Assembly (NCBI RefSeq): GCF_025628885.1
Contig: NZ_JAOTIF010000007.1
Coordinates: forward strand, 124,001-188,000
Origin: Paraflavisolibacter caeni
Lineage (GTDB): Bacteria > Bacteroidota > Bacteroidia > Chitinophagales > Chitinophagaceae
DNA length: 64,000 nt
Direction of reading: 5' to 3'
Positions 1 to 42,203 of this stretch are shown in pieces. The notes under the pieces are model-generated. The model saw nothing but the letters and a program-made list of their open reading frames with translations, was not told where the DNA came from and did not search any database. Position numbers and translations under genes: made by a program. The stretch's first letter is position 1; every line of letters begins with the position of its first letter.

Positions 1-912
1 ACTAAATATTCATTCAATCTTAATTATGCGCCTCATTTCGGCATGTTTGAAAACCTGGCCGGAAAAGATCTATTCGACCAATTAAGGTTTATGGCCGATA
101 CTGGATTCCGGTCTTTTGAGGATAGTGGCAGAGTTGGTGAAAACTTTCCCCGGGCATTTGGAATTGGCATGGTCGGGCAGCCGCCGGAACTGCTGGATAA
201 AATTGGAGAGACATTAGCTAATTTGGGTATGGAAATGGGAACATTCCTTCTGCCGCCCACATTTTGGCCACCCAAAGCAACACTGGCATCAGGCAATGTT
301 GAATGGCGTGCCCTTTTCCTGGAGCAATGCCATAAAGTAGTAGAAACAGCCAAACGGCTTAATGGACGTTATGTTACTGTGGTTGCAGACACTTTTGATT
401 ATTCGCTTCCTTTAGATATTCAAACAGCTAATGTTATTGAAGGACTGCGTTATGCATGCGATATTTTTGAACCTCATGGAATTACAATGGTGCTGGAACC
501 ATTAAGTGATCACCCGAGTTTATTTCTACGCACTTCCACCCAAGCATACCTGTTATGTAAAGCGGTGAACAGAAAGTGTTGTAAAATACTTTTCGACATG
601 TATCATTTGCAGAAAAATGAAGGGCGCCTGATCTATCACATGGATCAATGTTGGGATGAAATAGGTTATTTTCAAGTAGGAGATGAGCCGGGACGTAATG
701 AGCCCATGACTGGTGAAATCAATTATAAGAACATCTTTAAGCATATTGCTGAAAAGTCAAAAGCTACGAACAAGGAATTCATATTAGGGATGGAACATCA
801 TAATTCTCTGTCCGGAGAAGAAGGTGAAATGACAGTTATCAATACCTATAGATGGTGTGATGATTTTAATGAAAAAGAAATTGCTATAACCAGCGAAAAA
901 TTATTAAGCTGA
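1..912 (+). CDS. Hydroxypyruvate-isomerase-like TIM-barrel sugar isomerase (5' partial)
   Basis: The reading frame is open to base 1 and encodes LNYAPHFGMFE ahead of the first ATG at 43. This is the usual first strand of the hydroxypyruvate isomerase (Hyi)/xylose-isomerase-like TIM-barrel family, so the true start lies left of the window. Metal and active-site blocks visible are EPLSDHP, FDMYHLQ, GYFQVGDEPGRNEP and GMEHHN, in the family order. Members isomerise or epimerise small keto-sugars or keto-acids in the cytosol with a divalent metal. The stop TGA overlaps the ATG of the flavin oxidase by one base, so the two are translationally coupled; an inferred role is processing of a keto-sugar made by that oxidase. 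True hydroxypyruvate isomerase activity is equally possible. No signal peptide can be judged because the N-terminus is missing. Confidence 0.75.
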   Translation, partial: TKYSFNLNYAPHFGMFENLAGKDLFDQLRFMADTGFRSFEDSGRVGENFPRAFGIGMVGQPPELLDKIGETLANLGMEMGTFLLPPTFWPPKATLASGNVEWRALFLEQCHKVVETAKRLNGRYVTVVADTFDYSLPLDIQTANVIEGLRYACDIFEPHGITMVLEPLSDHPSLFLRTSTQAYLLCKAVNRKCCKILFDMYHLQKNEGRLIYHMDQCWDEIGYFQVGDEPGRNEPMTGEINYKNIFKHIAEKSKATNKEFILGMEHHNSLSGEEGEMTVINTYRWCDDFNEKEIAITSEKLLS

Positions 913-2516
913 TGAAACAAATTCAAACAGATGTTTTAATAGTTGGCAGTGGCCCTATTGGCGCAACGTATGCACGCTTGATCAAAGATGCTCTTCCGGA
1001 TACAAAAATCCTAATGATTGAGAAGGGGCCTAGGCTTACTGGTAAAGCGGGAATGCATGTGAAGAATATCGAAGACGATCAGGAACGGGAAAGGGCACAA
1101 ATACTTTCGCAGGGACCGCATCAAAAGCCGTATCCATTGATTACGGTTACAGAGCGAGCTAACGCAGTCAATATGGGTGAATTGAGCATTGACCTATTAG
1201 GAAGGCCGGGTACTCACCTTGTATCAGAAAATGCAGAAGACCTGAAGGCCAATGAAATGCCTGCAGCTTCCTGCTCAACCAATGTAGGTGGCATGGCAGC
1301 GCACTGGACATGTGCCTGTCCAAGGCCAGGGAATGCAGAGCGGATTCCGTTTATACCTGATGTTGAAATGGACCAGGCACTTACAAAGGCAGAAAAGCTG
1401 CTATGTGTTACCCAATCAGCTTTTCCGGAAAGTGCAGAAGGTTTGGCTATTCAAAAAGTTTTGGGCGATATTTTTAATGAGCAGCTTACCAGTGGCAGGA
1501 AGGTGCAACCAATGCCACTGGCTTGTATCACAAATGAAAAAGGAGAGCGGTATTGGGTTGGTCCTGACGTTATTCTGGGCGACCTAGCAGAGCCCGGATA
1601 TGCCGGTAATTTTGAATTGCGAGATCAAACTATCTGTCGACAACTTTATAAGGAAGACGGTCATGTTACTGGCGCACTGATCGAACATCTTCCTTCCGGA
1701 ACAAGAGAAGAAGTGAAAGCAAAGCTGGTAATTGTGGCCTGCGATGCCTTACGTACGCCGCAATTGCTGTGGGCATCGGGTATTCGACCAAAAGCTTTGG
1801 GACATTACCTGAATGAGCATCCTTTCATCTTCTGCTTTGTTGAATTAAAAGATGACCTGGTTGATACCACGCTTGGCAAACGGTACGATCAGTCTAGCCG
1901 AACAGAGCCAACCATAGGTGTCTTCTTGGTACCTTTTGATGATCCGGGCCATCCGTTTCATGCCCAAATTATGCACATGGATGTGTCGCCGTTGAAAATT
2001 GAAACGCATGGCAATCCAAAACATGTTGTTGGCCTGGGCATTGGCTGTTTGAAGGAAATGCGATATGAAGACTGCATTGAATTTTCGGAAACAGAACAGG
2101 ATTATTCTGGTATGCCGAAGATGAGTTTTCAATTTCAATTGACAGAAAAAGACAGAGCCCAAATTGCAAGTGCAAAAGTGGAGCAGGTAAAAGCTGCTGC
2201 GGCTTTTGGCAAAGTGATCCAGGAAGGCGAACAAACATTAATGCCAGCAGGAACGTCCTTGCATGCGCAAGCCACGGTGCGTATGGGTGTAGCAGATGAT
2301 GGGACCTCTGTTTGCGACACCTTTTCAAATGTTTGGGGTTATGACAATTTATTTGTTGGAGGCAATGGCGTTTTACCAGTGCCTACAACTTGCAACCCAA
2401 CCTTGACAAGCGTTGCATTGGCCGTCAGGAGCTCTGAGAAAGTGATTTCACTGCTGAAACATAATTCATCATATGAACAGCGAAACACTTTCAGAGGGAA
2501 ACCGGAAATTGCTTAA
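912..2516 (+). CDS. Pyranose-oxidase-type GMC flavoenzyme (candidate glycoside 3-oxidase)
   Basis: This 534-residue flavoprotein starts with the dinucleotide-binding motif VGSGPIGATYAR (about residues 11-22). The block GGMAAHWTCACPRPG matches the pyranose 2-oxidase GGMSTHWTCATP block; its His131 is the position that carries covalent FAD in that family. The C-terminal catalytic pair is present as His451 (SLHAQATVRMG) and Asn495 (CNPTLTSVALA). There is no signal peptide, so it is cytosolic. Pyranose-oxidase relatives include bacterial C-glycoside 3-oxidase (CarA), which makes 3-keto glycosides for a CarB/CarC-type deglycosidase, and a candidate for that deglycosidase is encoded at 25761-27211. 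Oxidation of a free sugar at C2 is the main alternative. It overlaps the upstream isomerase by one base, and a terminator follows 26 bases after the stop. Confidence 0.85.
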   Translation: MKQIQTDVLIVGSGPIGATYARLIKDALPDTKILMIEKGPRLTGKAGMHVKNIEDDQERERAQILSQGPHQKPYPLITVTERANAVNMGELSIDLLGRPGTHLVSENAEDLKANEMPAASCSTNVGGMAAHWTCACPRPGNAERIPFIPDVEMDQALTKAEKLLCVTQSAFPESAEGLAIQKVLGDIFNEQLTSGRKVQPMPLACITNEKGERYWVGPDVILGDLAEPGYAGNFELRDQTICRQLYKEDGHVTGALIEHLPSGTREEVKAKLVIVACDALRTPQLLWASGIRPKALGHYLNEHPFIFCFVELKDDLVDTTLGKRYDQSSRTEPTIGVFLVPFDDPGHPFHAQIMHMDVSPLKIETHGNPKHVVGLGIGCLKEMRYEDCIEFSETEQDYSGMPKMSFQFQLTEKDRAQIASAKVEQVKAAAAFGKVIQEGEQTLMPAGTSLHAQATVRMGVADDGTSVCDTFSNVWGYDNLFVGGNGVLPVPTTCNPTLTSVALAVRSSEKVISLLKHNSSYEQRNTFRGKPEIA

Positions 2517-2542
2517 GATTTAACCTATATCTTTTAGCGTAA

Positions 2543-3065: not shown

Positions 3066-3974
3066 TTGCCATTGAAAACTGTACAAATACCTGTTCTTAA
3101 ACTCACCGAAATGAATAAACATCATTTTGGTGACGCAGATTGGCAGCCGCTTCAAACGGGTATATCACAGTTTTTCCATATTAACCGGATTGAAGATTAT
3201 ATTGAGCACATAAAATTTCCTCTTCCTCCACATCGTAAAACCGTTTATGATTTTATTTTCCTGACACAAGGTCACAGCGTTCGTACTAAAGGGCTGGACA
3301 AGTATGAAATTGAGGCGCCTTCCTTCTTTTACTTACCACCTTATCAAATTACTACACATGAGATCATGAGCCGGGATGCTAAAGGATTCTATTGCCATTT
3401 TGATGCTGAAATCCTTACTAAATATTATAAGCCTAATGACCTTGTGAAAGAATTTCCCTTCCTTCAATTTATAGGCAATCCAATTATAAACGTTGAGCAG
3501 CAAGTTATACATCCTATTACCAATCTTTTAAGCCGACTGAAAGGCGAGTATGATCTACATGCCCAACAATTTGATGTTATTGGTATTTACCTGTTAGCAC
3601 TTTTTGTTGAAGTAAAGCGTTTTATGGGACCTGCCACCAAACTTTTGGAGAATGCTTCTTTCCGCGTAACACAACAATATAAAGAGGCGCTGATGCAGTT
3701 CGTTTATCAGAAGCAAAAAGTCTCCCTTTATGCTGATCTTTTGGCCGTGACTCCTAATCATTTAAACAAATGTGTAAAGGCTGTAACCGGTAAATCTGCT
3801 CATGACCTGTTGGATGAAATGATCTTATTGGAAGCAAAAGCTCTATTGAAACAAACCTCATTATCCATCAGTGAAATTGCTGATAAGGTGGGAAAGGAAT
3901 ACCTAAGCGACTTTGTTCGATTTTTTAAGACCAAAACCAGTTTGACACCGACTGAATATAGACAGCTCAATTGA
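3066..3974 (+). CDS. AraC-family transcriptional activator (paralogue 1)
   Basis: This 302-residue protein has an N-terminal ligand-sensing region (HINRIEDY...FIFLTQGHSVRTKGL) and a C-terminal double helix-turn-helix (VTPNHLNKCVKAVTGKSAH and LSISEIADKVGKEYLSDFV). The start is taken as TTG 3066 because residues between it and the next ATG (3111) align with the N-terminus of its paralogue at 20363 (shared IP...LK motif); an in-frame TGA lies at 3048. Recognition helices are almost identical to that paralogue, so both probably bind the same operators, most likely the repeats at 4160, 16595 and 21484. It sits just upstream of the meta-cleavage block. The inducer cannot be read from the sequence. 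Confidence 0.88.
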   Translation: MPLKTVQIPVLKLTEMNKHHFGDADWQPLQTGISQFFHINRIEDYIEHIKFPLPPHRKTVYDFIFLTQGHSVRTKGLDKYEIEAPSFFYLPPYQITTHEIMSRDAKGFYCHFDAEILTKYYKPNDLVKEFPFLQFIGNPIINVEQQVIHPITNLLSRLKGEYDLHAQQFDVIGIYLLALFVEVKRFMGPATKLLENASFRVTQQYKEALMQFVYQKQKVSLYADLLAVTPNHLNKCVKAVTGKSAHDLLDEMILLEAKALLKQTSLSISEIADKVGKEYLSDFVRFFKTKTSLTPTEYRQLN

Positions 3975-4299: not shown

Positions 4300-4563
4300 A
4301 TGAAAAAGTACAACCTGATTTTAAGCTTGGGTACCGCTATCACAGGTTCCTCTTCTACTCTGGCACTTTATGCACTTTGCAATCCTGTAAACAGCGTCAA
4401 CAATACCAATCGAAGTTTCGCAAAACACGCTGATTTACATTGGTATTTTAAAAAAACATCAACTTATTTCATATCATCAACTAATCAGTTCCAGAAAAAA
4501 ATTAATTACAATGGCAAGAAATCCTCATTACTTATCTCAATTAGCACATATAGAAATTTATAG
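4300..4563 (+). other. Doubtful 87-codon frame in the leader of the meta-cleavage operon
   Basis: The ATG at 4300 sits in the context TTGCAATATGAAAAAGT, identical to the start region of the TonB receptor at 21604, and the first residues (MKKYNLILSLG) look like the beginning of a signal peptide. The rest is low-complexity, matches no family I know and overlaps the dioxygenase gene out of frame by 53 bases. More likely this is a leader copied from a receptor-type promoter than a real gene. The remainder of the gap 3975-4510 holds only the promoter at 4160. Confidence 0.2.
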
Positions 4564-5503
4564 CTCTAAGCTGGAGGAGTCGGTAGACTTTTTTACCCAG
4601 GTTGTAGGACTGGATGAAACCGGTCGTGATGAGCAGTCTGTTTATTTTAGAGCATGGGGTGATTATTTTCATCATACGCTGAAAATTACAAAGAGTGATC
4701 AACCAGGCCTGGGACACCTGGGCTGGCGTGCAGATAGTCTTGAAGCGTTGGAAGACTGTGTGGCCTATCTTGAAAGTATAGGTGCCGGCCTGGGTTGGGT
4801 TGAAGGTGATCTTGGTCATGGCAAAGCCTACCGCTTTCAATCACCGGATGGGCATACCCATGAGGTATTCTGGGATGTGGTGTGGCTCAGAGAAACAGGA
4901 GAGAAGGGCAGCATCTATGCCGACCGTTATGCCTCCAACCGCCGCTTAGGTGTCAATCCTCGCCGGTTTGACCATGTGACCTATATGGTGGCTAAATACA
5001 AATATGCAGAGGAGAAAGCTTTCTGGAAAGCTATGGGACTGAAGAACCCGGATGAAGTAAGAATCTCTGATGAGCTGCCACCAGTAGGTGGGCTGTGGAC
5101 CATTGGTAATCTTTCTCATGACGTAGCTGTATTTACTGATCCTAATATAGAAGCAGGAGCAGGAGTGCTGAATCATATCTGCTACAATTTCGATAGCAGG
5201 GAAGAAGTGTTGCTGGCTCTAGATTATTTCACAGAAAAAGGATACAAGAGTGTAATGGGGGCCCCGACCAGACATAAGGCAGATGAGGGTTTCTTCATTT
5301 ATATAATTGATCCGGGGACAGGTGTTTTATTCGAGTTCTATGCAGGAGCCAGGTTGATTTTTGCTCCCGATCACGGACCCGATGTTCATTACCTGAAAGA
5401 TAATCCCAATGACGCCTGGGGGCTTGCTAACCCATTTGCAGAAATGGGTAAAGGGAAGAAACTGGGACTTACGGAAGGTGTGTTGAAACCGCAGGATATT
5501 TAA
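4511..5503 (+). CDS. Type I extradiol (catechol 2,3-type) dioxygenase, VOC family
   Basis: This 330-residue protein has two vicinal-oxygen-chelate domains (about 9-125 and 150-285), the standard size for type I extradiol ring-cleavage enzymes. The iron ligands of the catalytic C-terminal domain are visible as His155 (RRFDHVTYMV), His222 (VLNHICYNF) and Glu275 (GVLFEFYAGA). It should open a catechol-type ring next to the diol with Fe(II) and O2 in the cytosol. The downstream C-C hydrolase, FAH-family enzyme and FAD hydroxylase make a meta-cleavage operon. The combination recalls FdeC of naringenin breakdown in Herbaspirillum, which cleaves a hydroxylated flavonoid A ring; the true substrate here is inference. 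Translation starts at ATG 4511 after an AT-rich leader. Confidence 0.9.
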   Translation: MARNPHYLSQLAHIEIYSSKLEESVDFFTQVVGLDETGRDEQSVYFRAWGDYFHHTLKITKSDQPGLGHLGWRADSLEALEDCVAYLESIGAGLGWVEGDLGHGKAYRFQSPDGHTHEVFWDVVWLRETGEKGSIYADRYASNRRLGVNPRRFDHVTYMVAKYKYAEEKAFWKAMGLKNPDEVRISDELPPVGGLWTIGNLSHDVAVFTDPNIEAGAGVLNHICYNFDSREEVLLALDYFTEKGYKSVMGAPTRHKADEGFFIYIIDPGTGVLFEFYAGARLIFAPDHGPDVHYLKDNPNDAWGLANPFAEMGKGKKLGLTEGVLKPQDI

Positions 5504-5541: not shown

Positions 5542-6645
5542 ATGTGGCATTTTTATCCGGATCATTATATGTTCTCCTACCAGCTAAACCGAATACTGAC
5601 GCAGAGTCATTATGGTGGTGGAGAGGTCTTTGAATGTATGGAAGCAGCTTCAAGCATTACACCAGGAGATTTTAAGAGTTTTCATGATAGTTGGGCGCAA
5701 ACCGGAAACGAAGCTTTGGCGGTAGCAGAAGAGGCCATGGCAAAGGGATATTCCATTACTGCAAGACAAGCTTACTTAAGAGCATCGAATTATTTGCGTA
5801 CTTCTGAGTTTTTCTTAAAACCTGATGATCCTCGTAAAGTGCCAGGTTATTTGAAAGCTACAGAAGCCTTTCAGAAAGGAGCTTTCATGCTGCCTAATCC
5901 ACCCAAGTTCGTTCGTGTTCCTTTTGAGGGATCAGAAATGACCGGTTACTTTTTAAAGCCAGCTGGTGCGAAAGAAAATGGTCCTTTGATGATCATGTTT
6001 GGAGGCCTTGACTCCACGGCTGAAGAGTTGTATTTCGGTCCCTGGCAGAAGTTAGAAGAACGTGGTATTTCCCTATTGATGCTGGATGGTCCAGGTCAGG
6101 GGGCATCACTGCGCCTACGGCATATGCTTACCCGTTATGATTATGAAGTGCCAGCTACTGCTGCCTTTGATTGGGCTGTTGCCAATTTGCCTGTAGATCC
6201 CAAACGCATTGGTATTATGGCTGTTTCTATGGGTGGTTATATGGCTGCAAGAGCAGCAGCTTTTGAAAAACGTTTTAAAGTGTGTTGTGTGTGGGGAGCA
6301 GTATGGAGTTATTATGATATCTGGAAGAACCGTCCTGATAATCATTCCTTGGCAAGCATCATGATGCATATCACCGGTTCCACCAATATGACAGAAGCCC
6401 GTGAAAAACTGAAGAATTTTACTTTAGAAGGAGTGGCAGAAAAAATCAGCATGCCAACGTTTATCTCGCATGGTGAAGATGACAAGCAAAACTTTGTAGA
6501 GAATGCTTATAAGTTGTACGATGCATTGACATGTGAAAAGCATATCAACATTGTGCCTAAAGAAGGCACTGGTTCATCACACTGCCATGTGGACAATTTT
6601 AATAAAGTAAATCCCATGTTTGATTGGCTGCAAACTGTTTTGTAG
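5542..6645 (+). CDS. Alpha/beta hydrolase with N-terminal helical cap, probable C-C bond hydrolase
   Basis: In this 367-residue protein, residues 1-115 are a helical N-terminal domain and residues 125-367 an alpha/beta hydrolase. The triad is Ser229 (AVSMGGYMA), Asp313 or Asp314 (HGEDDKQN) and His347 or His349 (SSHCHVDN). The layout resembles 2,6-dihydroxypseudooxynicotine hydrolase, a cofactor-free C-C hydrolase acting on a ketone side chain of an aromatic ring. Placed between an extradiol dioxygenase and an FAH-family protein, it probably splits a ring-fission product or a beta-diketone. There is no signal peptide, so it is cytosolic. A simple carboxylesterase role cannot be excluded. Confidence 0.8.
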   Translation: MWHFYPDHYMFSYQLNRILTQSHYGGGEVFECMEAASSITPGDFKSFHDSWAQTGNEALAVAEEAMAKGYSITARQAYLRASNYLRTSEFFLKPDDPRKVPGYLKATEAFQKGAFMLPNPPKFVRVPFEGSEMTGYFLKPAGAKENGPLMIMFGGLDSTAEELYFGPWQKLEERGISLLMLDGPGQGASLRLRHMLTRYDYEVPATAAFDWAVANLPVDPKRIGIMAVSMGGYMAARAAAFEKRFKVCCVWGAVWSYYDIWKNRPDNHSLASIMMHITGSTNMTEAREKLKNFTLEGVAEKISMPTFISHGEDDKQNFVENAYKLYDALTCEKHINIVPKEGTGSSHCHVDNFNKVNPMFDWLQTVL

Positions 6646-6667
6646 GTCTTATGCTAATTGGAAAAAA

Positions 6668-7582
6668 ATGAAACTTGTTACTTTCAAAAATAAAGACGGA
6701 GCCGAAAGAGCAGGCTGGTTAAAGGGGGATGGGGTCGTAGACATGCACTTGATTAGCAAGGGTGCACTGCCAGCCAACATGCTCCAATTTATTGATCACC
6801 ATGAGCAATATTTTGCCATTATCAAAGAACAAGGGTTAGAAGATATTGAATCCACTTATTCATTAGATGCAATAAAATTATTAGCACCGCTGCCCAATCC
6901 ACGCAGCTTTAGAGACTATGTTTCATTTGAACAACATTTGCAGAATGCGGCGGCACGCTTTGGACACAGTATAGCCAAGGAGTGGTATGAAATGCCCATC
7001 TTTTATTTCACCAATCACCAGGCTATTTATGGACCTGAAGAAGAGATCGCTCGTCCCTCAAAAGAAACAAAGCTGGATTATGAATTAGAAATGGCTTGCA
7101 TTATCGGTAAGAAAGGCAAGAACATTAAGGCAGAAGAAGCTGAAGATTACATCTTTGGCTATACTGTATTTAATGACTGGACAGCCAGGAGTATCCAGGG
7201 AGTTGAAATGAAAGTGCATTTAGGTCCAGCCAAGGGAAAGGATTTTGCTAATGCCATTGGTCCCTGCATTGTGACAAGGGATGAAATGAACCAATATCTG
7301 CAGGATAATGGAAGATTCAATGTGCGCATGATCGCAAAGATCAATGGACAAGTCATTTGTGAAGGAAATTTCAATACCATTCATTACACCTTTGGACAGA
7401 TGATCGAAAGAGCCTCAGAGAATGGTGTCACCCTTTACCCGGGCGATATCCTTGGTTCAGGTACGGTAGGATGGGGGAGTTTGATTGAGACAGGGGGAGA
7501 AGCACACCGCTTTTTAGAACGGGGTGATGTTGTGGAGTTTGAGATCGAAGGGATCGGAGTTTTGAGGAACTATGTTGTGTGA
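6668..7582 (+). CDS. Fumarylacetoacetate hydrolase (FAH)-family hydratase/hydrolase
   Basis: The start is set at ATG 6668 (MKLVTFKNKDGAERAGWL), the usual N-terminus of this family; upstream codons belong to the end of the preceding gene in another frame. The protein has 304 residues. FAH signatures are visible: FRDYVSFEQH, FYFTNHQAIYGPEEEI, LDYELEMACIIG (the metal-binding acidic pair), FGYTVFNDWTAR (third acidic ligand) and GPAKGKDFANAIGP. Members hydrate or hydrolyse 2-oxo-enoates and acylpyruvates from meta-cleavage pathways, or decarboxylate 5-oxopent-3-ene-1,2,5-tricarboxylate. Its position after the dioxygenase and C-C hydrolase suggests the next step of the same pathway. The exact reaction is not determined by sequence. 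Confidence 0.88.
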   Translation: MKLVTFKNKDGAERAGWLKGDGVVDMHLISKGALPANMLQFIDHHEQYFAIIKEQGLEDIESTYSLDAIKLLAPLPNPRSFRDYVSFEQHLQNAAARFGHSIAKEWYEMPIFYFTNHQAIYGPEEEIARPSKETKLDYELEMACIIGKKGKNIKAEEAEDYIFGYTVFNDWTARSIQGVEMKVHLGPAKGKDFANAIGPCIVTRDEMNQYLQDNGRFNVRMIAKINGQVICEGNFNTIHYTFGQMIERASENGVTLYPGDILGSGTVGWGSLIETGGEAHRFLERGDVVEFEIEGIGVLRNYVV

Positions 7583-7716: not shown

Positions 7717-8862
7717 ATGATTGTTATGCCAACAGTGAATAAAGTATTGATTGTAGGTGGCGGCATTGGAGGGTTGTCTTCCGGTATTGCCCTGGCCAAA
7801 AATGGCTGTTCTGTTACTATTGCTGAACTCCACAAGGAGTTCAATGTCTATGGAGTGGGCATTATCCAGCCTGCTAATGCCCTGAGAGCTTTAGATGCGC
7901 TGGGACTGGCTGAAGAAGCCTTGCGACGGGGCTCTCCTTATGGCATGGTGAAAATGTGCACTGCTGCAGGGCATGTCTTTACAGAAGTAGGTGTACCATC
8001 AATAGGCCGTCTTCCCAGTCACAACGGCATTTCCAGAAGAATTCTTCATGAGATCCTTTATGAGGAGGCTGTAAAGCAGGGTGTGGTTTTCCGTATGGGT
8101 ACCAGTGTTGCAGCCATTGAAAACAAAGGAGAAGAAGTAAGCGTGCAATTTACTGATGACAGCACCGGCACTTACGATCTGCTCATTGGAGCCGATGGCA
8201 TCAATTCCAAGGTACGGAGCCTTGTATTCGGAAACTATAAGCCCCGTTATACCAATGAGTCGGTATGGCGTTATCCCTTCAAGCGTTTACCTGAATTAGA
8301 GACCGGTTATATGTTCATGGGCAGGCACTCTAAAGCAGGTTTGATTCCCATGACCGCTGATACAATGTATATGTTCCTTGTGACTTCGGAAGGGGAAGAC
8401 AATCCTTTTATTCCGGAACATGAATTAGTACCTCGTATGAGGGCCTGGCTTGGAGAATATTCTGCACCCATGATCAAAAAAGTAGTGGATGAAATTACCG
8501 ATCCTAAAAAAGTGGTGTACCGGCCATTGGAGGTCTTGTTTGTGCCGGCACCCTGGTATGAAAATAGAGTAGTGTTGATTGGTGATGCGGTGCATGCCAC
8601 CATTCCGCAGTTGGGGCAAGGTGCAGGCCTTGCTTTGGAGGATTCTATTGTATTGGCTGAATTGCTTCAAAAAGAAAGCGAAGTGGAAGAAGCGCTTCAT
8701 AAATTTATGGACCGACGCCTGGCACGTTGTAAAATGGTGGTGGATACTTCTGTACAACTCGGTGAATTGGAACAGTTGGACTGGAAGGGACGGTTACCTG
8801 AAGGAACTAATCTTGGTGCCATCATAGGAAAAGCCTCGGCGGCCATGATGCAACCCATTTAA
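7717..8862 (+). CDS. FAD-dependent aromatic hydroxylase (group A monooxygenase)
   Basis: This 381-residue protein has the three landmarks of single-component flavin hydroxylases: VGGGIGGLSSGIAL near the N-terminus for FAD ADP binding, the DG motif in LLIGADGINSKVR, and the GD motif in VVLIGDAVHATIPQLGQGAG. It is similar in size and layout to 3-hydroxybenzoate 6-hydroxylase, salicylate hydroxylase and the flavonoid hydroxylase FdeE. It probably uses NAD(P)H and O2 to hydroxylate the ring so that the extradiol enzyme at 4511 can act. ATG 7726 (MPTVNKV) is an alternative start nine bases downstream. It is cytosolic and the last gene of the meta-cleavage block. Confidence 0.88.
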   Translation: MIVMPTVNKVLIVGGGIGGLSSGIALAKNGCSVTIAELHKEFNVYGVGIIQPANALRALDALGLAEEALRRGSPYGMVKMCTAAGHVFTEVGVPSIGRLPSHNGISRRILHEILYEEAVKQGVVFRMGTSVAAIENKGEEVSVQFTDDSTGTYDLLIGADGINSKVRSLVFGNYKPRYTNESVWRYPFKRLPELETGYMFMGRHSKAGLIPMTADTMYMFLVTSEGEDNPFIPEHELVPRMRAWLGEYSAPMIKKVVDEITDPKKVVYRPLEVLFVPAPWYENRVVLIGDAVHATIPQLGQGAGLALEDSIVLAELLQKESEVEEALHKFMDRRLARCKMVVDTSVQLGELEQLDWKGRLPEGTNLGAIIGKASAAMMQPI

Positions 8863-13971: not shown

Positions 13972-13981
13972 AAATATTCTG

Positions 13982-15163: not shown

Positions 15164-15180
15164 AAGAACTCAAAATAAGT

Positions 15181-15879: not shown

Positions 15880-15882
15880 TTC

Positions 15883-21555: not shown

Positions 21556-21603
21556 ATAGACAACGATTCAAAAAAATCATTTTTCGAAACGAAAACTTGC
21601 AAT

Positions 21604-24497: not shown

Positions 24498-24503
24498 AAA
24501 ATA

Positions 24504-26192: not shown

Positions 26193-26206
26193 CCTGAAAG
26201 ATAATT

Positions 26207-33487: not shown

Positions 33488-33497
33488 AACAGATAGG

Positions 33498-34560: not shown

Positions 34561-35742
34561 ATGACCACGAAAACCCAGGTTGCTATCATTGGTGCAGGGC
34601 CGGCCGGACTGACACTTTCTCTTCTTTTAAACAGATCCGGCATTGATTGTATTGTGCTGGAAAACCGCAGCAGGGCATATGTAGAAGCCAGAGTACGCGC
34701 AGGATTGCTCGAACAAAACACTGTTGATCTATACAATGAATTAGGTGTTGCAGACCGCTTAAACAAAGAAGGTTTGCTGCACCATGGTGTTTATTTAAGT
34801 TTTAACGGACAGCGAAAACGAATTCCATTCAATGAGCTTACCGGTGGACGTACCATCACCATTTACGGACAACAGGAAGTGGTGAAGGATCTTATAAAGG
34901 CAAATATTGAGCGAGGTACTCCTATACAATTTGAAGCAGCTGCAACCTGCATTGAAGGTAGTGATACAAAGCATCCTAAAGTCCATTACCAGCAAGATGG
35001 TGAACAGCATATACTGGAATGTGATTTTGTAGCAGGCTGTGACGGTTATCATGGCATTGGGCGAAAAAGCCTTCCTACAAATTCTTACAATGAATTTGTA
35101 AAAGAATATCCCTTCAGCTGGCTGGGCATTCTGGCTCATGCAGCACCATCAACCGATGAATTGATCTATGCTTATCATGAGCGTGGATTTGCGCTACATA
35201 GTTTGCGCTCTCCGAAAGTGAGTCGCTTGTATTTACAAGTTGATAATGCTGATAAAGTAGAGAACTGGACAGACGACCAGATCTGGGATGAATTGCAAGT
35301 GCGGTTATCCAATGGAAATGGTTTCCAGTTAAACCGAGGCGAAATCTTCGAAAAAGCGATTACCCCCATGCGCAGCTTTATGATTGACAATATGCAGTTT
35401 GGCAGGTTATTCCTTGCAGGTGATGCTGCACATATTGTACCACCTACAGGAGGCAAAGGATTAAACCTGGCTGTAGCCGATGTGAAGTGGATGGCGGCAG
35501 CATTGGAAGACTGGTATCGTACTGGTAAGGAGCAATTGCTTCAATCTTATTCTTCCAATTGTCTCAGAAGAATTTGGAGAGCTCAAGACTTTTCCAATTT
35601 CATGACCTACCTCTTTCATAAACAGGCAGCGCAAGGCTCATTTGAATATCATTTACAGAAATCCCGCTTTGATTACATTGGTCAGTCTAATGCGCAGGCC
35701 ACAACCATTGCGGAAAATTATGTTGGGCTTAAAGAAATATAG
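34561..35742 (+). CDS. pobA: 4-hydroxybenzoate 3-monooxygenase
   Basis: This 393-residue flavoprotein is close to the length of the Pseudomonas enzyme and aligns along its whole length: QVAIIGAGPAGLTLSLLL (FAD), RIRAG-type block ARVRAGLLEQNTVDL, GGRTITIYGQQEV, FVAGCDGYHGIGRKSLP (DG motif), FLAGDAAHIVPPTGGKGLNL (GD motif) and the C-terminal TIAENYVGL with its substrate-site tyrosine. It converts 4-hydroxybenzoate to protocatechuate with NAD(P)H and O2. First gene of the operon; the stop is two bases before the next start. Confidence 0.97.
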   Translation: MTTKTQVAIIGAGPAGLTLSLLLNRSGIDCIVLENRSRAYVEARVRAGLLEQNTVDLYNELGVADRLNKEGLLHHGVYLSFNGQRKRIPFNELTGGRTITIYGQQEVVKDLIKANIERGTPIQFEAAATCIEGSDTKHPKVHYQQDGEQHILECDFVAGCDGYHGIGRKSLPTNSYNEFVKEYPFSWLGILAHAAPSTDELIYAYHERGFALHSLRSPKVSRLYLQVDNADKVENWTDDQIWDELQVRLSNGNGFQLNRGEIFEKAITPMRSFMIDNMQFGRLFLAGDAAHIVPPTGGKGLNLAVADVKWMAAALEDWYRTGKEQLLQSYSSNCLRRIWRAQDFSNFMTYLFHKQAAQGSFEYHLQKSRFDYIGQSNAQATTIAENYVGLKEI

Positions 35743-35744
35743 AC

Positions 35745-36914
35745 ATGCAGTTTATCAACATTAATGGCAAGGCCATTCACTATAAATATCTAAAAGGAAA
35801 TGGTGAACGGACTTTTCTGTTTGTCAATTCGCTTGGTACTGATTTTCGTATATGGGATAGGGTTGTTGAATTGATCAGGAGTGAAGGCTCTGTTCTTTGT
35901 TTTGATAAACCAGGACATGGGCTTTCTGAAGAAGTGGATGGGCCTATTCGCATCAGCGATTATGTACAGTTGATCATTTCCCTATTAGACATGCTACAGA
36001 TAGAAAAGTGCGTTTATGTTGGCTTATCTATAGGCGGTTTGATCGGACAACATATGGCATTAAAACATTCTGAAAGAATTGAACATTTGATCCTGAGTAA
36101 CAGTGCTCCTAAAGCAGATGCTGCGGAATACTGGAAAACAAGGATCAATGCCATCAGGCAGGGAGGTATGGCCTCCCTATCTGATAAAATCCTGGAACGT
36201 TGGTTGTCTGAAGATTTCAGGAACAATCAGAAAATAGAAACAGCAGGCCTCAAACGTATGTTAGAAAGCTGTTCTACATTGGGATATATCCATGCATGCG
36301 AAGCAATAAGGGATGAAGACCTGAGCAATGAGATTCATGCTATAGCTATACCTACGCTTTGTATTGCGGGAAGTGAGGACAACGCAACACCGCAGGAAAG
36401 AGTTGAAGCTACTGCAGCAAAGATCCCAAACGCCAAAATGGTGGTCATAAATGGGGTAGGGCATCTGCCCTGTGTGGAAACACCGCAAGAGTTTGTACAA
36501 ATACTTTTGGATTTTTTGGCTTCTTCCAACGGTTCTCTAAATGAAAGAGGAATGAAAACCCGTCGAGCAGTGCTGGGCAATGCTCATGTGGACAGGGCTG
36601 AGGCCCATAAAACCAGCTTTGACCAGGATTTCCAGGAATATATCACTAACAATGCCTGGGGGGCAGTTTGGGCCAGGCCGGGACTCACCAAAAGGGAGAG
36701 GAGTTTACTCACGATTGCTTTACTGACTGCCATGCGTTATGAAGATGAACTGGCAATGCACATCAGGGCTACACAAAATACTGGCGCATCAGAAGAGGAT
36801 GTGAAAGAGGTATTGCTGCATACAGCGGTTTATGCTGGTGTGCCGGCTACAAATGGTGCCATTAAAATCGCCAAAGAAATTTTTAATCAAAAAAATGCTT
36901 CTCATGGAAAATAG
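35745..36914 (+). CDS. pcaL: Fused 3-oxoadipate enol-lactonase / 4-carboxymuconolactone decarboxylase
   Basis: This 389-residue fusion has residues 1-260 as the PcaD alpha/beta hydrolase with Ser95 (VGLSIGGLIG), Asp212 (GSEDNATP) and His240 (GVGHLPC). Residues about 270-389 are the PcaC decarboxylase (MKTRRAVLGNAHVDRA, RSLLTIALLTAMRYEDEL, LLHTAVYAGVPATNGA). The two domains catalyse consecutive steps: decarboxylation of gamma-carboxymuconolactone, then lactone opening to 3-oxoadipate. Similar fusions (PcaL) occur in actinobacteria and other phyla. Its 3' end overlaps pcaH. Confidence 0.95.
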   Translation: MQFININGKAIHYKYLKGNGERTFLFVNSLGTDFRIWDRVVELIRSEGSVLCFDKPGHGLSEEVDGPIRISDYVQLIISLLDMLQIEKCVYVGLSIGGLIGQHMALKHSERIEHLILSNSAPKADAAEYWKTRINAIRQGGMASLSDKILERWLSEDFRNNQKIETAGLKRMLESCSTLGYIHACEAIRDEDLSNEIHAIAIPTLCIAGSEDNATPQERVEATAAKIPNAKMVVINGVGHLPCVETPQEFVQILLDFLASSNGSLNERGMKTRRAVLGNAHVDRAEAHKTSFDQDFQEYITNNAWGAVWARPGLTKRERSLLTIALLTAMRYEDELAMHIRATQNTGASEEDVKEVLLHTAVYAGVPATNGAIKIAKEIFNQKNASHGK

Positions 36915-37614
36915 TCAACTCATTGAAGTGGAACCAATTAATTTCAATGTGCAACCTCCTCACTTGTATTCCGAGTACAAATCAACCATTTTGCGCAGTC
37001 CCACAAAACCCCTGATACCTGTTAAAGAGCAGTTGAAAGATTTGAGTCTGCCTGCTTTTGGCGACTCTGCTATAGGAAAATGGGATCACGATTTAACTAA
37101 AAATGCCCGTAAAAATGGCGAGCCCATTGGTGAACGCATCAAAGTATCAGGAAAGGTGATGGATGAATACGGCCGACCGCTTCGTAATGTACTGGTTGAA
37201 ATCTGGCAAGCCAATGCAGCTGGTCGATATATCCACAAAGCTGAAATTCACGATGCTCCTCTGGATCCCAACTTTTTGGGTGCCGGGCGTATGCTTACGG
37301 ATAGAGAAGGAAGATATAGCTTCTATACAATTAAGCCAGGTGCTTATCCGTGGGGTAATCATTTTAATGCCTGGCGACCTAATCATATTCATTTCTCTGT
37401 GATCGGGCATCAAATCGGGCACCGGTTGGTCACACAAATGTATTTCCCGGGAGATCCATTATTTGAATTTGATCCCATTTTCCAATCAGTTCCCAAGCAT
37501 GCAAGGGAATTATTAATAGCCAAATTCAGGATGGACTGGACTGAGCCTGAATTTGCGCTGGCTTATGAATTCAATATTGTTTTAAACGGTAAATGTCAAA
37601 CTCCTTTTGAATAA
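36904..37614 (+). CDS. pcaH: Protocatechuate 3,4-dioxygenase beta subunit
   Basis: ATG 36904 gives 236 residues (ATG 36895 is an alternative); either overlaps the previous gene by 11-20 bases. The non-heme Fe(III) ligands of the beta subunit are visible: Tyr109 (GRYIHKAE), Tyr148 (PGAYPWGN), His161 and His163 (RPNHIHFSV). It performs intradiol cleavage of protocatechuate to 3-carboxy-cis,cis-muconate together with PcaG. Usual length and order for the family. Confidence 0.96.
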   Translation: MENSQLIEVEPINFNVQPPHLYSEYKSTILRSPTKPLIPVKEQLKDLSLPAFGDSAIGKWDHDLTKNARKNGEPIGERIKVSGKVMDEYGRPLRNVLVEIWQANAAGRYIHKAEIHDAPLDPNFLGAGRMLTDREGRYSFYTIKPGAYPWGNHFNAWRPNHIHFSVIGHQIGHRLVTQMYFPGDPLFEFDPIFQSVPKHARELLIAKFRMDWTEPEFALAYEFNIVLNGKCQTPFE

Positions 37615-38225
37615 TGGAAAAACTAAGACAAACACCTTCGCAAACAGTCGGACCTTTCTTTGCCTACAGTTTAACTGCAGAACAATACGGTTATGATTAC
37701 AACAGCCTTATCAATGGTTTATTGATCAACCATGATACAGAAGGAGAACGCATTTATATTACTGGTCGTATTTATGATGGTAAGGGCCAAACGATCCCTG
37801 ACGCTTTGATCGAATTGTGGCAAGCTGATGCAAACGGACAGTATCGCTCTTTGCCTATTCACCAAAAGAATGATGGTTTTACCGGCCTTGGCCGCCTGGG
37901 CACAGGAACTGATGTACAGGATCGTTTTTTGTTTACCACGATCAAGCCTGGTTCCATCGGAGATGGTCAGGCTCCTCATATCAATATCATATTGTTTATG
38001 AGAGGCTCCCTGCATCGATTGTACACCAGGCTTTATTTTTCGGATGAATCAGCAACTAATAGCCAGGATGAATTGTTCAATACCATTCCAGAAGAAAGAA
38101 GAAATACCCTAATAGCACAGCGTAAACAAAATGCCGGAAGAATAGAATATCATTTCGATATCTATATGCAGGGGGAAAAAGAAACAGTTTTTTTGATGTA
38201 TATAACAAATGATGTCATTTCATGA
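37614..38225 (+). CDS. pcaG: Protocatechuate 3,4-dioxygenase alpha subunit
   Basis: This 203-residue subunit has the N-terminal [14 protein letters not shown] and [15 protein letters not shown] blocks of intradiol dioxygenase alpha chains. The iron ligands of the beta chain are absent, as normal for PcaG (for example [10 protein letters not shown] in place of HIHF). It shapes the active site of the heteromer. Start and stop overlap its neighbours by one and four bases. Confidence 0.95.
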
Positions 38226-39604
38226 AACGAGTTCCACAAATTACGGCTGCAGAAGCTGCAGCACTGGTAAAGGTTGGTGATACGGTATTAGGTGGTGGTT
38301 TTGGTATGACCGGCAACCCTGTTCATTTGCTTCATGCCCTTGCGGAAACGGGTACAAAGAATTTAACCTTTATTGGAAATAATGTAGGAGAGCCTGGTTT
38401 GGGTGGAGGAAGGCTACTGAAAAACGGACAGATCAAGAAAATGATTGGTTCCTTTTTTACGTCTAATCCTGATGCTGTAAAAGCGGCACAAGCTGGAGAA
38501 GTAGCATATGAGCTATTACCACAGGGAACATTAGCCGAAGCGATAAGGGCAGGTGGCGCCGGTATAGGTGGATTTTATACGCCCACATCAGCAGGAACAC
38601 TGATTGCGCAAGGGAGGGAAACCAAAATTATAGATGGAGTAGAGCAGGTTTTTATCAAAGGCATCAGAGCTAATGTAGCCTTCATCAGGGCCTGGCGCGC
38701 CGATACGGCAGGCAACCTGACCTACCGGATGACAGAGCAAAACTTTAACCGGGCCATGGCCACAGCGGCAGACCTAGTAGTTGCTGAAGTAGAGGAAATT
38801 GTGCCTGTTGGTGAACTGGATCCAAACCACATTCATACGCCAGGTTGTTACGTGGACTACCTGGTGCAGGCCCATGTTTCCCTGGAAAACCTGGGAAGTT
38901 CTGCTTCTGTTGGTTCTTCTAAGAAAGTAAGTGAATCCAGGATGAATATGGCCAGGCGTGCCTTTGCAGAACTGAATAAAGGTGATGTCGTCAATCTCGG
39001 TATTGGTATTCCTACATTGGTTGCAGATCTCATCAAACCCGAACATGGCATCATTTTGCACACTGAAAACGGCATGCTGGGTGTAGGGCCTTCTCCAATA
39101 GATGGGGGTGCAATGGACTATCCCGTTAATGCCGGGAAAATACCTGTTACAGCCCTTCCCGGCAGCTCTTATTTTGATAGTACAGACAGCTTTGCCATGA
39201 TCCGCGGCGGGCATGTGGATGTAGCCATAATGGGCGGATTGGAAGTAGATGAACAAGGGAATTTAGCCAACTGGGCGGTGCCTGGTAAACCTCTATTGGG
39301 CGTGGGGGGTGCCATGGACCTGGCATCAGGAGCCAAGAAGCTGATTGTTACCCTTACTCATGCCGATCCTGATGGAACTTCCAAGATTGTACCCCAATGT
39401 ACTCTGCCACTAACGGCACATGGAGTCGTTGATCTGGTGATCACCGACCTGGCAGTTTTTGCATACCCGGATGGGCAATTGACTTTAATAGAGCTCATGC
39501 CTGGAGCTACCCTGGAAGAAGTAAGGGCTAAAACTGCAGCAAAATTTATTGAACAATTGGAAAAGGATAAAGTTGAAAAAAATGAAACAAGCATATATCG
39601 TTGA
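38222..39604 (+). CDS. pcaIJ: Fused 3-oxoadipate CoA-transferase (subunits A and B in one chain)
   Basis: In this 460-residue fusion, residues 1-225 are the A half ([45 protein letters not shown]) and residues 237-455 the B half. The catalytic glutamate is Glu282 ([12 protein letters not shown]). A short Gly/Ser/Lys linker (about 225-236) joins them. It transfers CoA from succinyl-CoA to 3-oxoadipate. The fusion differs from the split A/B pair at 15181-16539, so the two sets have separate histories. Four-base overlap with pcaG and 23-base overlap with pcaF. Confidence 0.94.
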
Positions 39605-40790
39605 TAGTATCCGTACGCCTATTGGAAATCTGGGAGGAAGTCTTTCTTCAGTACGTACAGACGATTTGGCCACTTTGGTCATCAAAGAATTGGTAGGCCG
39701 TATTCCCAATATCCCCACAGAAGTAATTGATGATGTGATTTTAGGATGTCACAACCAGGCAGGAGAGGATAACCGCAATGTGGCCCGTATGGCATTGTTG
39801 CTGGCCGGTTTGCCCACCTCTGTACCCGGTGAGACAGTGAACCGTCTTTGTGCATCAGGTATGTCGGCAGTCATGCATGCTGCACATGCTATCAAAGCAG
39901 GAGAAGGGGATGTGTTTATAGCGGGGGGGGTAGAAAATATGACCAGGGGGCCATGGGTGATTTCCAAATCATCTAAGCCTTTCGGTACCGATGCTCAAAT
40001 GTTTGACTCCAGTTTTGGCTGGCGTTTTGTTAATCCCAAAATGCACCAGATGCATGGTACCGATGCTATGGGTGCCACGGCAGAAAACCTGGTGGACATC
40101 TATAAGATCAGCCGGGAGGACCAGGATCATTTTGCTTATCATTCCCACGAGCGTGCAGCCAAGGCCAGGGATTCAGGCAGGTTTGCAGAAGAGATCGTGC
40201 CTGTTGAAATACAGGTGAAGAAGGGTGAAACCTCTTTATTTAAAGATGATGAATTCATCAAGGATCATACAACCCTAGAGAAACTCGCACAATTGAAACC
40301 AGTATTCCGTAAGGAAGGTGGATCGGTAACCGCAGGAAATTCATCGGGGATCAATGATGGAGCTGTTGCTATGTATATTGTATCTGAAGATGCGTTGAAA
40401 AAGTACAATCTTACACCCAAGGCAAGGATTGTATCTTCAGCCGTTGTAGGAGTTGAACCCAGGATCATGGGTATTGGTCCTGTAGGTGCTACCCAGAAAG
40501 CTTTGAAGAAAGCAGGTCTTACAATTGAAGATATGGACCTGATCGAATTCAATGAAGCCTTTGCGGCACAAACATTAGCTTGTATACGGGAACTTGGTTT
40601 GACTGAAGATGATCCGCGCATCAATCCGAATGGGGGAGCCATTGCATTGGGACATCCTCTTGGTATGTCGGGTGCCAGGATTATCCAGACTGCAGCACAT
40701 GAATTGCATAAACAAAACAAAAGATATGCATTGGCTACCTTGTGTATAGGAGTTGGGCAGGGTTATGCTACGATCATTGAAAGAGTTTAA
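39582..40790 (+). CDS. pcaF: 3-oxoadipyl-CoA thiolase
   Basis: ATG 39582 gives the standard start [19 protein letters not shown] and 402 residues, characteristic of the PcaF subgroup. It has the nucleophile block [12 protein letters not shown], then [32 protein letters not shown] and [11 protein letters not shown]. It splits 3-oxoadipyl-CoA to succinyl-CoA and acetyl-CoA. The gene begins inside the end of pcaIJ. Confidence 0.96.
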
Positions 40791-40871
40791 AATAATACTA
40801 TAAATATTGTCCAATATCCTAATATCCCATTATCTTAATGTTTATAAATTCTAACATACAATTGTTTATTC

Positions 40872-42203
40872 ATGCAGCACCTGTATGAGGCCATCTTTTA
40901 TGATCCAAAAGTGAACTTGCTTTTTCGTGATGAAGCCATCATTCAATACATGCTTCAGTTTGAAAGTGCATTGGCCCAGGCTCAAGCTATATGTGGTGTT
41001 ATACCCGGTGAGGCAGCTCAGGTTATAAGTGAATGTTGCCAAGTTGCAAACATCAACAAAGAACAATTAATAGCTGATGCAGCCCTGGGTGGCAACGTTA
41101 ATATACCCCTGGTTAAACAATTGACCTCTGTAGTCAATCAGAAAGATGCAGCAGCTGCAAAATATGTTCATTATGGCGCCACCAGCCAGGATGTCATTGA
41201 TTCGGCGGTGATGCTGCAGTTAAAAGATGCTATTGATCTGATTGCCAAAGGCCTGGACGTTTTGATTGAACAATTGACATTACTGGTAGAAACTCACAGG
41301 AATACAGTAATGATAGGCCGTTCTTTTATGCAACAAGCACGTCCAATCACATTTGGTTTCAAAGTGGCTCATTGGTTGGACGGAATTTTGCGATCAAAGG
41401 AAAAAGTGGATGATTTATTAAAAGAAAACTTTGTTCTTCAATTGGGAGGAGCAGTTGGTACTTTTCATGGTATGATGGGAAGGGGTTTAATGGTGGCAGA
41501 AAAGATGTCTGGACTACTCGGACTCAAGATGCTTTCCATCCCCTGGCATACACAAAGAGACTGTTTGGCAGCAATTGCTACAACGTTAGGTATCCTAAAT
41601 GGTAGCCTTGGTAAAATAGCCAAAGACATTTCGCTGTTGATGCAAACGGAGATAGCAGAAGTTTTCGAGCCCTCGGGTAAGGGTAAGGGCGGTTCCTCTA
41701 CTATGCCGCATAAGAGAAATCCGGTAGGTTGTATTGCTATCCTTGCCAATGTTCAACGGGTGCCATCATTAGTAGCCACAATGCTTGGTACGATGGTGCA
41801 GGATCATGAAAGAGGTACAGGGACCTGGCATGCTGAATGGGAAACCATCAGTGCCATCGTGCAACTGACGGCAGGTTCATTGCGCAAGGCTACAGAAGTA
41901 ACGAATGGTTTGGAAGTGGATAAAGAACAGATGCTGCGCAATATTGAAATTACCAAAGGGTTGATCTTTGCTGAAAATATATCACTTGCTTTAGCAGAAA
42001 AAATCGGGAAACAGGAAGCGCATGAATTGATAGAAAAATGCTGTCAGGAGGTGCAAAGGAGTGGCATGCATTTGAAAAATATCGTTTTGGAAAATACAGT
42101 TATGAGGCAATATTTAACCAGTAGTGAGATTGAGGGGCTTTTTGATCCGGTTAGGTCAATTGGATTATGTGAGGAGTGGATTAAACGGGTTTTAAACATA
42201 TAG
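40872..42203 (+). CDS. pcaB: 3-carboxy-cis,cis-muconate cycloisomerase
   Basis: This 443-residue protein is of the fumarase/aspartase superfamily with signature GKGGSSTMPHKRNPVG and blocks VHYGATSQDVIDSAVMLQ and GRSFMQQARPITFGFKVAHW. It lactonises 3-carboxy-cis,cis-muconate to gamma-carboxymuconolactone, the step between PcaHG and the PcaC domain. An AT-rich gap of 81 bases separates it from pcaF, and it ends the operon. With it the protocatechuate branch is complete. Confidence 0.94.
   Translation: MQHLYEAIFYDPKVNLLFRDEAIIQYMLQFESALAQAQAICGVIPGEAAQVISECCQVANINKEQLIADAALGGNVNIPLVKQLTSVVNQKDAAAAKYVHYGATSQDVIDSAVMLQLKDAIDLIAKGLDVLIEQLTLLVETHRNTVMIGRSFMQQARPITFGFKVAHWLDGILRSKEKVDDLLKENFVLQLGGAVGTFHGMMGRGLMVAEKMSGLLGLKMLSIPWHTQRDCLAAIATTLGILNGSLGKIAKDISLLMQTEIAEVFEPSGKGKGGSSTMPHKRNPVGCIAILANVQRVPSLVATMLGTMVQDHERGTGTWHAEWETISAIVQLTAGSLRKATEVTNGLEVDKEQMLRNIEITKGLIFAENISLALAEKIGKQEAHELIEKCCQEVQRSGMHLKNIVLENTVMRQYLTSSEIEGLFDPVRSIGLCEEWIKRVLNI

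Follow-up and report, generated by a model that had tools for sequence, protein, structure and literature searches.

A 64,000-nucleotide stretch of the Paraflavisolibacter caeni genome (hereafter the window; positions 124001-188000 of contig C67, in a 7.0-Mb genome of 89 contigs) holds part of a locus that probably serves to break down glycosides of plant flavonoids, C-glucosides among them. An earlier note on this DNA had proposed such a route from glycoside to central metabolism, and sequence and genome comparison support its interpretation. Every enzyme class that it named was recovered by profile searches, with Pfam on 40 open reading frames (ORFs) of the window (60 ORFs when those of the region upstream are included) and NCBIfam on 30. 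Its placement of the locus start at position 1 was wrong: the ORF of the first gene already opens 9 bases ahead of the window, and a further 33 kb of related genes, reaching upstream to about 91 kb of the contig, bring another ring-cleavage module and two additional deglycosidase pairs. Inside the locus we also found a GH35 protein, an esterase-GDSL fusion, a TonB receptor without SusD partner and a second phosphoenolpyruvate carboxykinase (PEPCK), none of which had been listed. The gene content, the intact catalytic residues and the recurrence of the set in other genomes were observed directly.

Sugar removal is represented by GH106 and GH43 proteins, the latter with a C2 domain, and by two sugar-oxidation systems, all of them anticipated in the earlier note (Table 1). 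The first system is a pyranose-oxidase-like GMC protein with no signal peptide visible on reading the sequence; it is 52% identical to a GMC protein adjoining C-glycoside deglycosidase (CGD) genes in Deinococcus, and homologues lie beside CGD genes in two relatives, G195 (another genus of the same family) and G477 (a metagenome-assembled genome, MAG, of Cytophagales). The second, at 17953-20366, combines a Gluconate_2-dh3 and a GMC subunit, which we take to be LacA-like and LacB-like, respectively; no LacC-like cytochrome was found next to the pair among the four ORFs of at least 100 amino acids scanned between 16.7 and 21.3 kb. The deglycosidase itself consists of a CGD beta subunit (PF19906, 108 bits for a cut-off of 27.6) and an adjoining alpha subunit, together spanning 25761-27211. 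The best PDB matches of the alpha subunit are 9m3a (E 1e-63) and 7bvr (E 1e-62). Alignment shows its E-x-H, D, H-x-K and E-x-E motifs to be conserved, and the two alpha proteins encoded upstream on the contig keep the catalytic motifs as well; the portion of PMC8563793 available lists Mn-binding Glu, Asp, His, Lys and Glu and catalytic His/Glu for this subunit. The beta subunit and the catalytic residues argue against these genes encoding ordinary sugar isomerases, and we propose that the pair is a C-glycoside deglycosidase cleaving 3-keto-C-glycosides.

Ring cleavage would be carried out by a module comprising an extradiol dioxygenase (DIOX, 4511-5503), an FrsA-like hydrolase (ABH, 5542-6645), a fumarylacetoacetate hydrolase-family enzyme (FAH, 6620-7582) and a group A FAD monooxygenase (FMO, at 7717); a second monooxygenase (FMO2) starts at 24477, so that both predicted aromatic hydroxylases are present. 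In DIOX, H155/H222/E275 and H203/H255/Y264 align with catechol 2,3-dioxygenase (PDB 1mpy), where the first three are iron ligands (2-His-1-Glu) and the others acid-base residues (His/His/Tyr). ABH is closest in sequence to DHPON hydrolase (PDB 2jbw), then to Wdyg1p; a Foldseek search with its AlphaFold2 model (mean pLDDT 86.9) ranked DHPON hydrolase first by E-value, followed by SMU_737, Wdyg1p, AntI, Ayg1p and FrsA. The earlier likening of these ring-A enzymes to the fde naringenin pathway holds in part: a group A FAD monooxygenase and a glyoxalase-fold dioxygenase do share one cluster, whereas a partner like FdeD, the Rieske protein described in the available part of PMC8552027, is missing from the ORFs scanned. 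The likeness to fde and to the isoflavone ifc genes would be one of enzyme kinds, recognized here by family.

Three sets of genes offer outlets for the products. The pobA-pca set was confirmed as complete at 34561-42203 (PobA, PcaDC, PcaH, PcaG, PcaIJ, PcaF and PcaB), with each Pca protein passing the cut-off of at least one NCBIfam model that names it and PobA passing one of two (Table 1); PobA and the Pca set fit 4-hydroxybenzoate as a product. The thiolase and the A and B subunits of a 3-oxoacid CoA-transferase were found where expected, at 13865-16539. They are not a duplicate of PcaIJF: acetyl-CoA acetyltransferase models give the thiolase at 13.9 kb 447-448 bits, which is below their cut-offs but above the 328 bits obtained with PcaF, and PcaIJ and PcaF are separate genes. 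Subunit B is one of three genome copies over the cut-off, PcaIJ included, and the type of the thiolase together with the extra CoA-transferase copy fits acetoacetate as a product. Finally, PEPCK (31619..33487) is the second copy in the genome, the other lying at C1:804205-805254, and with the malic enzyme encoded upstream it fits a C4 acid as a product.

From substrate to products, including cellular location, order of steps and assignment of enzymes, we infer the following pathway. Rhamnose, pentose, galactose and acyl groups would be removed by GH106, GH43, GH35 and the esterases, probably at an extracytoplasmic site, and TonB receptors and MFS carriers would import the remainder. The C-linked glucose would be oxidized to a 3-keto sugar by the pyranose-oxidase-like GMC protein or the LacAB-like pair, after which CGD would split the C-C bond to the sugar. 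Ring A of the aglycone would be hydroxylated by FMO and opened by DIOX, with cleavage between C8 and C8a in a 5-hydroxyflavone. FAH could then release C5-C8 as a C4 unit, which for 5-hydroxyflavonoids would be oxaloacetate. The remaining 4-hydroxy-6-aryl-2-pyrone may be opened to a 3,5-diketo acid by a cyclase-family or SGL-family hydrolase of the upstream half, and ABH would perform a retro-Claisen cut to 4-hydroxybenzoate and acetoacetate. The three products would reach central metabolism via PEPCK/malic enzyme, CoA-transferase plus thiolase, and PobA-Pca. Flavanones would require an extra oxidation, for which HisD or an SDR are speculative candidates.

The formula balance of this scheme closes (C15 to C4 + C4 + C7), and the same arithmetic yields 301.0354 for the ring-fission product of 8-hydroxydaidzein and 203.0350 for the intermediate X3, compared with published isoflavone-intermediate ions of 301.0352 and 203.0349 (PMC11069340). 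In the available text of that ifc study, isoflavones undergo 8-hydroxylation and ring-A dioxygenation and then yield 2-hydroxy-5-aryl-4H-pyran-4-one (X3), with no gene identified for the conversion of X2 to X3; FAH is a candidate for this step. Oxaloacetate is mentioned as a ring-A product in the accessible part of PMC8515041. The proposed pathway would also explain the presence of an extra PEPCK and of acetoacetate-type genes among aromatic genes.

The upstream half (C67:91-124 kb) encodes a second dioxygenase, hydrolase, FAH, FAD monooxygenase and GH106 that are 76, 66, 75, 86 and 74% identical to the window copies, respectively. It also carries HisD-family, SGL, ABM, cyclase and malic-enzyme genes, two SDR genes, an MFS carrier, two more AraC-TonB pairs, a third TonB receptor and two further CGD alpha-beta pairs. 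Its cyclase-family protein retains the stretch HAGTHVDAPWH, which we take to agree with the metal motif of PF04199. The two modules did not arise by simple tandem duplication, since their dioxygenases belong to different lineages: that of the window groups with G195 at a support of 91/82, and the one encoded upstream clusters with MAGs of Saprospiraceae and Chitinophagales (99/94), although the two FAD monooxygenases (7717-8862 and L008:8052-9185) are sisters with 86% identity (100/99). Sister monooxygenases beside dioxygenases of different lineages suggest gene conversion or a mosaic origin and, taken with the plasmid copies described below, point to horizontal spread and mosaic assembly of the module. 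Separately, identical dioxygenase rows occur across marine genera (L052, L053, L059 and L060; Maribacter stanieri/Arenibacter and Zobellia/Maribacter sedimenticola), which points to recent transfer.

The earlier note would have taken its idea as refuted had the two halves, glycoside and ring-A genes on one side and pob-pca on the other, never co-occurred in relatives; they do co-occur, in G195, in G477 and on a Hymenobacter plasmid, so the idea passes this check. In G195, one 38-kb run joins both, starting with two AraC-TonB pairs, MFS, four CGD subunits, isomerase, GMC oxidase, dioxygenase and hydrolase, and continuing with HisD, SDR, FAD monooxygenase, FAH, ABM, cyclase, PobA, PcaD, PcaC, PcaH, PcaG, PcaIJ and PcaB; no PcaF homologue was seen in this run. 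A single contig of G477 carries four CGD subunits, an oxidase, the ring module and pob-pca with PcaF from 30.6 to 72.3 kb, directly preceded by HisD and SDR genes. A single stretch of the Hymenobacter monticola plasmid carries GH3, GH106, esterase, GH43, TonB, AraC, GH1, dioxygenase, hydrolase, HisD, SDR, FAH, ABM, cyclase, FAD monooxygenase, pcaHG, pcaB, pcaD, pcaC, 4-hydroxybenzoate monooxygenase, CoA-transferase and pcaF, with no CGD in the 31 kb viewed. We observed in G195 (L014:10982-12091, Meth_synt_2) and G477 (L095:11924-13030) a methionine-synthase-like protein between the ring module and pobA, perhaps a demethylase.

Beyond Bacteroidota, plasmid pDAETH-1 of Deinococcus aetherius holds in one run a CGD alpha gene (54% identical to the second alpha of contig C67), CGD beta, GMC (52% to that of the window), dioxygenase (38%), cyclase, FAH, hydrolase (32%), SGL (63%), SDR and both FAD monooxygenase types (40 and 42%), with no pca in the 31 kb viewed. 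The start of this CGD alpha (L089:9037-10041) is almost letter-for-letter that of PDB chain 8qvc_A, which we take to come from work on Deinococcus aerius, and a close relative thus seems to have been structurally solved already. The Paenibacillus version combines GH43, a weak GH106 relative (22%), CGD and the ring module; there, an acyl-CoA-dehydrogenase-fold protein takes the place of the FAD monooxygenase (L076:10975-12174) with a PNPOx-like protein nearby, a possible displacement of the ring-A hydroxylase. In Bacillus sp. OK048, a beta-keto acid cleavage enzyme (BKACE; L077:14164-15024) directly follows the dioxygenase module, which fits a beta-keto acid product. Rhizobial plasmid matches to the dioxygenase reach 36-38%, and the one inspected lies in a gallate-type neighborhood. 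Among plasmid matches to the hydrolase or to CGD, that of Variovorax sp. RA8 shows clustered genes for a hydrolase, FAH and a small VOC protein, and neither CGD nor pca appears in the 25 kb viewed; the gene set was not seen around the Variovorax paradoxus and Rhodococcus plasmid matches, and Novosphingobium pNL2 bears CGD pairs and GMC with no ring module in the 25 kb viewed.

The arrangement of the window is very probably not due to chance, as it recurs in these other genomes. That a glycoside-harvesting cluster merely neighbors an independent 4-hydroxybenzoate operon for lignin monomers strikes us as very improbable, although PEPCK and a divergent AraC gene do lie between the 31-kb and 34.5-kb positions, a regulator of its own accompanies pob-pca and in most relatives PcaH lies away from the dioxygenase; against this, the halves adjoin each other in G195 and on the Hymenobacter plasmid and are near each other in G477, and they are strongly associated at the genome level in two families, though the genomes are not independent. 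These counts come from 394 genomes of the host family and 150 of the family of G442, both even draws from larger groups. In the host family, 5 of 394 genomes have a dioxygenase at E 1e-30, of which the host itself (G000) and G195 (82%) were kept as the same type; those of G029, G057 and G262, only 33-34% identical, were rejected as orthologues and taken as another type. The CGD beta family appears in three of the 394 at E 0.001 and exceeds the cut-off in the same two, G000 and G195, while PcaH does so in four (G000, G195, G041 and G098). In the family of G442, PcaH is present in 31/33 genomes with the dioxygenase vs 19/117 without, and the deglycosidase in 8/33 vs 1/117, again in genomes that are not independent.

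A non-exhaustive scan of 84,980 species genomes with two seven-residue patterns returned at least 69 loci: 59 in Bacteroidota (L017-L075), a short Bacteroidia fragment, one in Paenibacillus, one in Bacillus and seven more distant ones in Actinomycetota. Among the 43 Bacteroidota loci of at least 18 kb, we counted homologues at identity cut-offs of 30% or 45% within 10 kb on either side of DIOX, whose own count is uninformative because it served to pick the loci. The hydrolase was found in all 43, the FAD monooxygenase in 42, FAH in 41, the cyclase in 26, HisD in 19, the esterase in 14, GH106 in 6 and CGD alpha in 4. Whole-genome counts used 48 of the 69 loci, corresponding to 47 genomes that overlap the 33 dioxygenase genomes of the G442 family; the 21 loci left out comprise short contigs, fragments, the seven Actinomycetota loci and the full-length Runella MAG locus L040. 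PcaH exceeds its cut-off in 43 of these 47 genomes (the exceptions being two Bacillota and two Bacteroidota) and CGD beta in 9.

Several of our observations weigh against a flavonoid C-glycoside pathway of the form proposed. The CGD marker was not found in 38 of the 47 genomes in a whole-genome search, so that the C-glycoside part looks optional within the module, and only 3 of the 43 Bacteroidota loci have a pob or pca gene at most 10 kb from DIOX. G497 has CGD and PcaH with no DIOX match, and in G552 a distance of 20 kb separates CGD from PcaH, compared with 1 Mb between CGD and DIOX. The cyclase and SGL genes lie outside the window, in the upstream half, and no Rieske domain (FdeD-like) was detected among the 60 ORFs of window and upstream half given to Pfam. 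SMU_737, annotated as an acylaminoacyl peptidase, has a higher TM-score with the ABH model than DHPON hydrolase, and FrsA matches too. In Variovorax, disruption of a DHPON-hydrolase-like gene left daidzein degradation unaffected, according to the available part of PMC11069340.

Marine Flavobacteriia, moreover, mostly carry the core without rhamnosidase (GH106) or CGD within 10 kb and may use other phenolics. This would suit a ring system directed at another phenolic glycoside (a xanthone such as mangiferin, a chromone such as aloesin, a dihydrochalcone, an isoflavone or, in marine relatives, an algal phloroglucinol-type compound), with flavones as side substrates at most, and known C-glycoside oxidases and deglycosidases do take xanthone, anthraquinone, chromone and isoflavone glycosides (excerpts of PMC8563793 and PMC12724307). 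We consider this unlikely: the linkage of PobA-pca in several genomes agrees with degradation of a 4-hydroxyphenyl B ring to 4-hydroxybenzoate, a different end point would be expected for isoflavones, and GH106 recurs in 6 of the 43 loci. Returning to flavonoid glycosides, a wider reading is possible, to which we would give slightly less than even chances: a mobile module across Bacteroidota, Bacillota and Deinococcota would convert flavones to exactly oxaloacetate, acetoacetate and 4-hydroxybenzoate, FAH acting after ring-A opening and the polyketide-shortening-type hydrolase last, and some lineages would have fused it with C-deglycosylation and pob-pca into a self-sufficient locus. Dioxygenase-bearing relatives, which include Spirosoma, Runella, Emticicia, Flavobacterium and Maribacter species, make the proposal directly testable.

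Table 1. Genes of the locus within the window, in contig order (window coordinates).
Feature	Coordinates	Strand	Basis and remarks
Sugar isomerase/epimerase-like TIM-barrel protein	43..912	+	Pfam PF01261; ORF C67:123992-124912; 60% identical neighbor in G195 cluster
GMC oxidase, pyranose oxidase / C-glycoside 3-oxidase kind	912..2516	+	TIGR02462 231 bits, under cut-off (545)
AraC-type regulator	3066..3974	+	Pfam HTH_18; paralogues at 20363 and upstream
Extradiol ring-cleavage dioxygenase (DIOX)	4511..5503	+	NCBIfam TIGR03211 210 bits, under cut-off
FrsA-like C-C bond hydrolase (ABH), proposed	5542..6645	+	Best PDB match 2jbw, DHPON hydrolase
Fumarylacetoacetate hydrolase-family enzyme (FAH)	6620..7582	+	Pfam PF01557 186 bits; PDB matches; start probably ATG at 6668
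Group A FAD monooxygenase (FMO), proposed ring-A hydroxylase	7717..8862	+	Pfam PF01494
GH106 alpha-L-rhamnosidase	8896..12303	+	Pfam PF17132 1133 bits
GH43 with C2 domain (xylosidase/arabinofuranosidase type)	12382..13971	+	Pfam
Thiolase, acetyl-CoA acetyltransferase type	13865..15163	+	Passes general TIGR01930; start probably ATG at 13982
3-Oxoacid CoA-transferase subunit A	15115..15879	+	TIGR02429 over cut-off
3-Oxoacid CoA-transferase subunit B	15883..16539	+	TIGR02428 over cut-off
MFS transporter	16713..17915	+	Pfam
Gluconate_2-dh3 subunit (LacA-like)	17953..18594	+	Pfam PF13618; N-terminus Tat-like on reading
GMC oxidoreductase (LacB-like glucoside 3-dehydrogenase, proposed)	18684..20366	+	Pfam
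AraC-type regulator	20363..21304	+	Pfam
TonB-dependent receptor without SusD partner	21553..24447	+	Pfam
Second group A FAD monooxygenase (FMO2)	24477..25730	+	Pfam; 40% homologue in Deinococcus CGD cluster
C-glycoside deglycosidase (CGD) beta subunit, proposed	25761..26192	+	PF19906; PDB 7bvr_B
C-glycoside deglycosidase (CGD) alpha subunit, proposed	26207..27211	+	PDB 9m3a_A, 7bvr_A; metal and catalytic residues kept
Acetylxylan-esterase-like + GDSL esterase fusion	27797..29404	+	Pfam, NCBIfam
GH35 family protein with DUF5597	29462..31171	+	NF051902 over cut-off
GTP-type PEP carboxykinase (PEPCK)	31619..33487	+	NF003253 over cut-off
AraC-type regulator, proposed for pob-pca run	33498..34373	-	Pfam; 43% homologue divergent to pobA in G477
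PobA, 4-hydroxybenzoate 3-monooxygenase	34561..35742	+	NF006091 572 bits, over cut-off (351); TIGR02360 499, under cut-off (538.7); PDB
PcaDC fusion	35745..36914	+	NF051488 over cut-off
PcaH	36832..37614	+	TIGR02422 over cut-off
PcaG	37614..38225	+	TIGR02423 over cut-off
PcaIJ fusion	38222..39604	+	TIGR02428 and TIGR02429 over cut-off
PcaF	39549..40790	+	TIGR02430 over cut-off
PcaB	40872..42203	+	TIGR02426 over cut-off; NF006554 570 vs 595, under cut-off

Between the CGD and esterase genes, a 146-amino-acid ORF (27327-27767) with a signal-peptide-like start joins a short N-terminal stretch to the Fn3-like C-terminus of a BglX-type GH3 protein and resembles what an internal deletion would leave of a GH3 beta-glucosidase. 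Downstream of the pca genes, 42901-62221 holds two SusCD pairs, an ECF sigma/FecR pair and a GH141-like beta-helix protein, which look like ordinary polysaccharide loci outside the pathway. Across 1-20 kb, scans for promoters and terminators yielded no more matches than shuffled sequence did, and the Bacteroidota promoter pattern had no match in the first 42.5 kb of the window.

Plants commonly contain flavonoid C-glycosides, which resist degradation. In the PurABC/CarABC/DgpABC systems of Paenarthrobacter, Microbacterium and gut Bacillota, as is proposed for our locus, the sugar is first oxidized at position 3 and a metal-dependent alpha-beta C-C lyase then acts; 9m3a and 7bvr, with a beta chain designated DgpB, are the best PDB matches of the window CGD, and the GMC oxidase is as in the Car and Pur systems. 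The locus differs in joining three CGD pairs and two oxidation systems to ring cleavage, whereas the available parts of PMC12724307, PMC8563793 and PMC10646112 describe only deglycosylation for the published clusters. PurABC homologues in Bacteroidota and Deinococcota have already been noted, with no link to ring cleavage in the accessible text (PMC12724307).

The fde pathway of Herbaspirillum seropedicae (naringenin) and the ifc pathway of Variovorax (isoflavone) resemble the locus in using an FAD monooxygenase and then a glyoxalase-fold dioxygenase to open ring A, and ifc likewise holds a DHPON-hydrolase-like gene. Compared with both, the locus adds FAH, HisD-family, ABM, SGL, glycosidases, CGD and pob-pca, with no FdeD-like Rieske partner among the ORFs scanned. 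ABH is similar in sequence and predicted fold to DHPON hydrolase and to the polyketide-shortening hydrolases Ayg1p/Wdyg1p/AntI, its proposed role being a catabolic cleavage of an aryl-diketo acid. The beta-ketoadipate (pob-pca) set is complete and ordinary, with PcaDC and PcaIJ fusions, and differs in being joined to the proposed ring-A genes. Taken singly, the parts belong to known kinds; no description of one recurring locus that unites them and holds a sink for each of the three proposed products appears among the literature matches listed. The earlier note knew of no described Bacteroidota locus with all these parts, and none that joins C-deglycosylation, ring-A fission and pca emerged by title or abstract start among the open-literature matches listed, subscription papers lying mostly outside the search. 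The described C-deglycosylation enzymes that we found end at the aglycone, where the described ring-A pathways begin; the locus would join both and carry the carbon into central metabolism.

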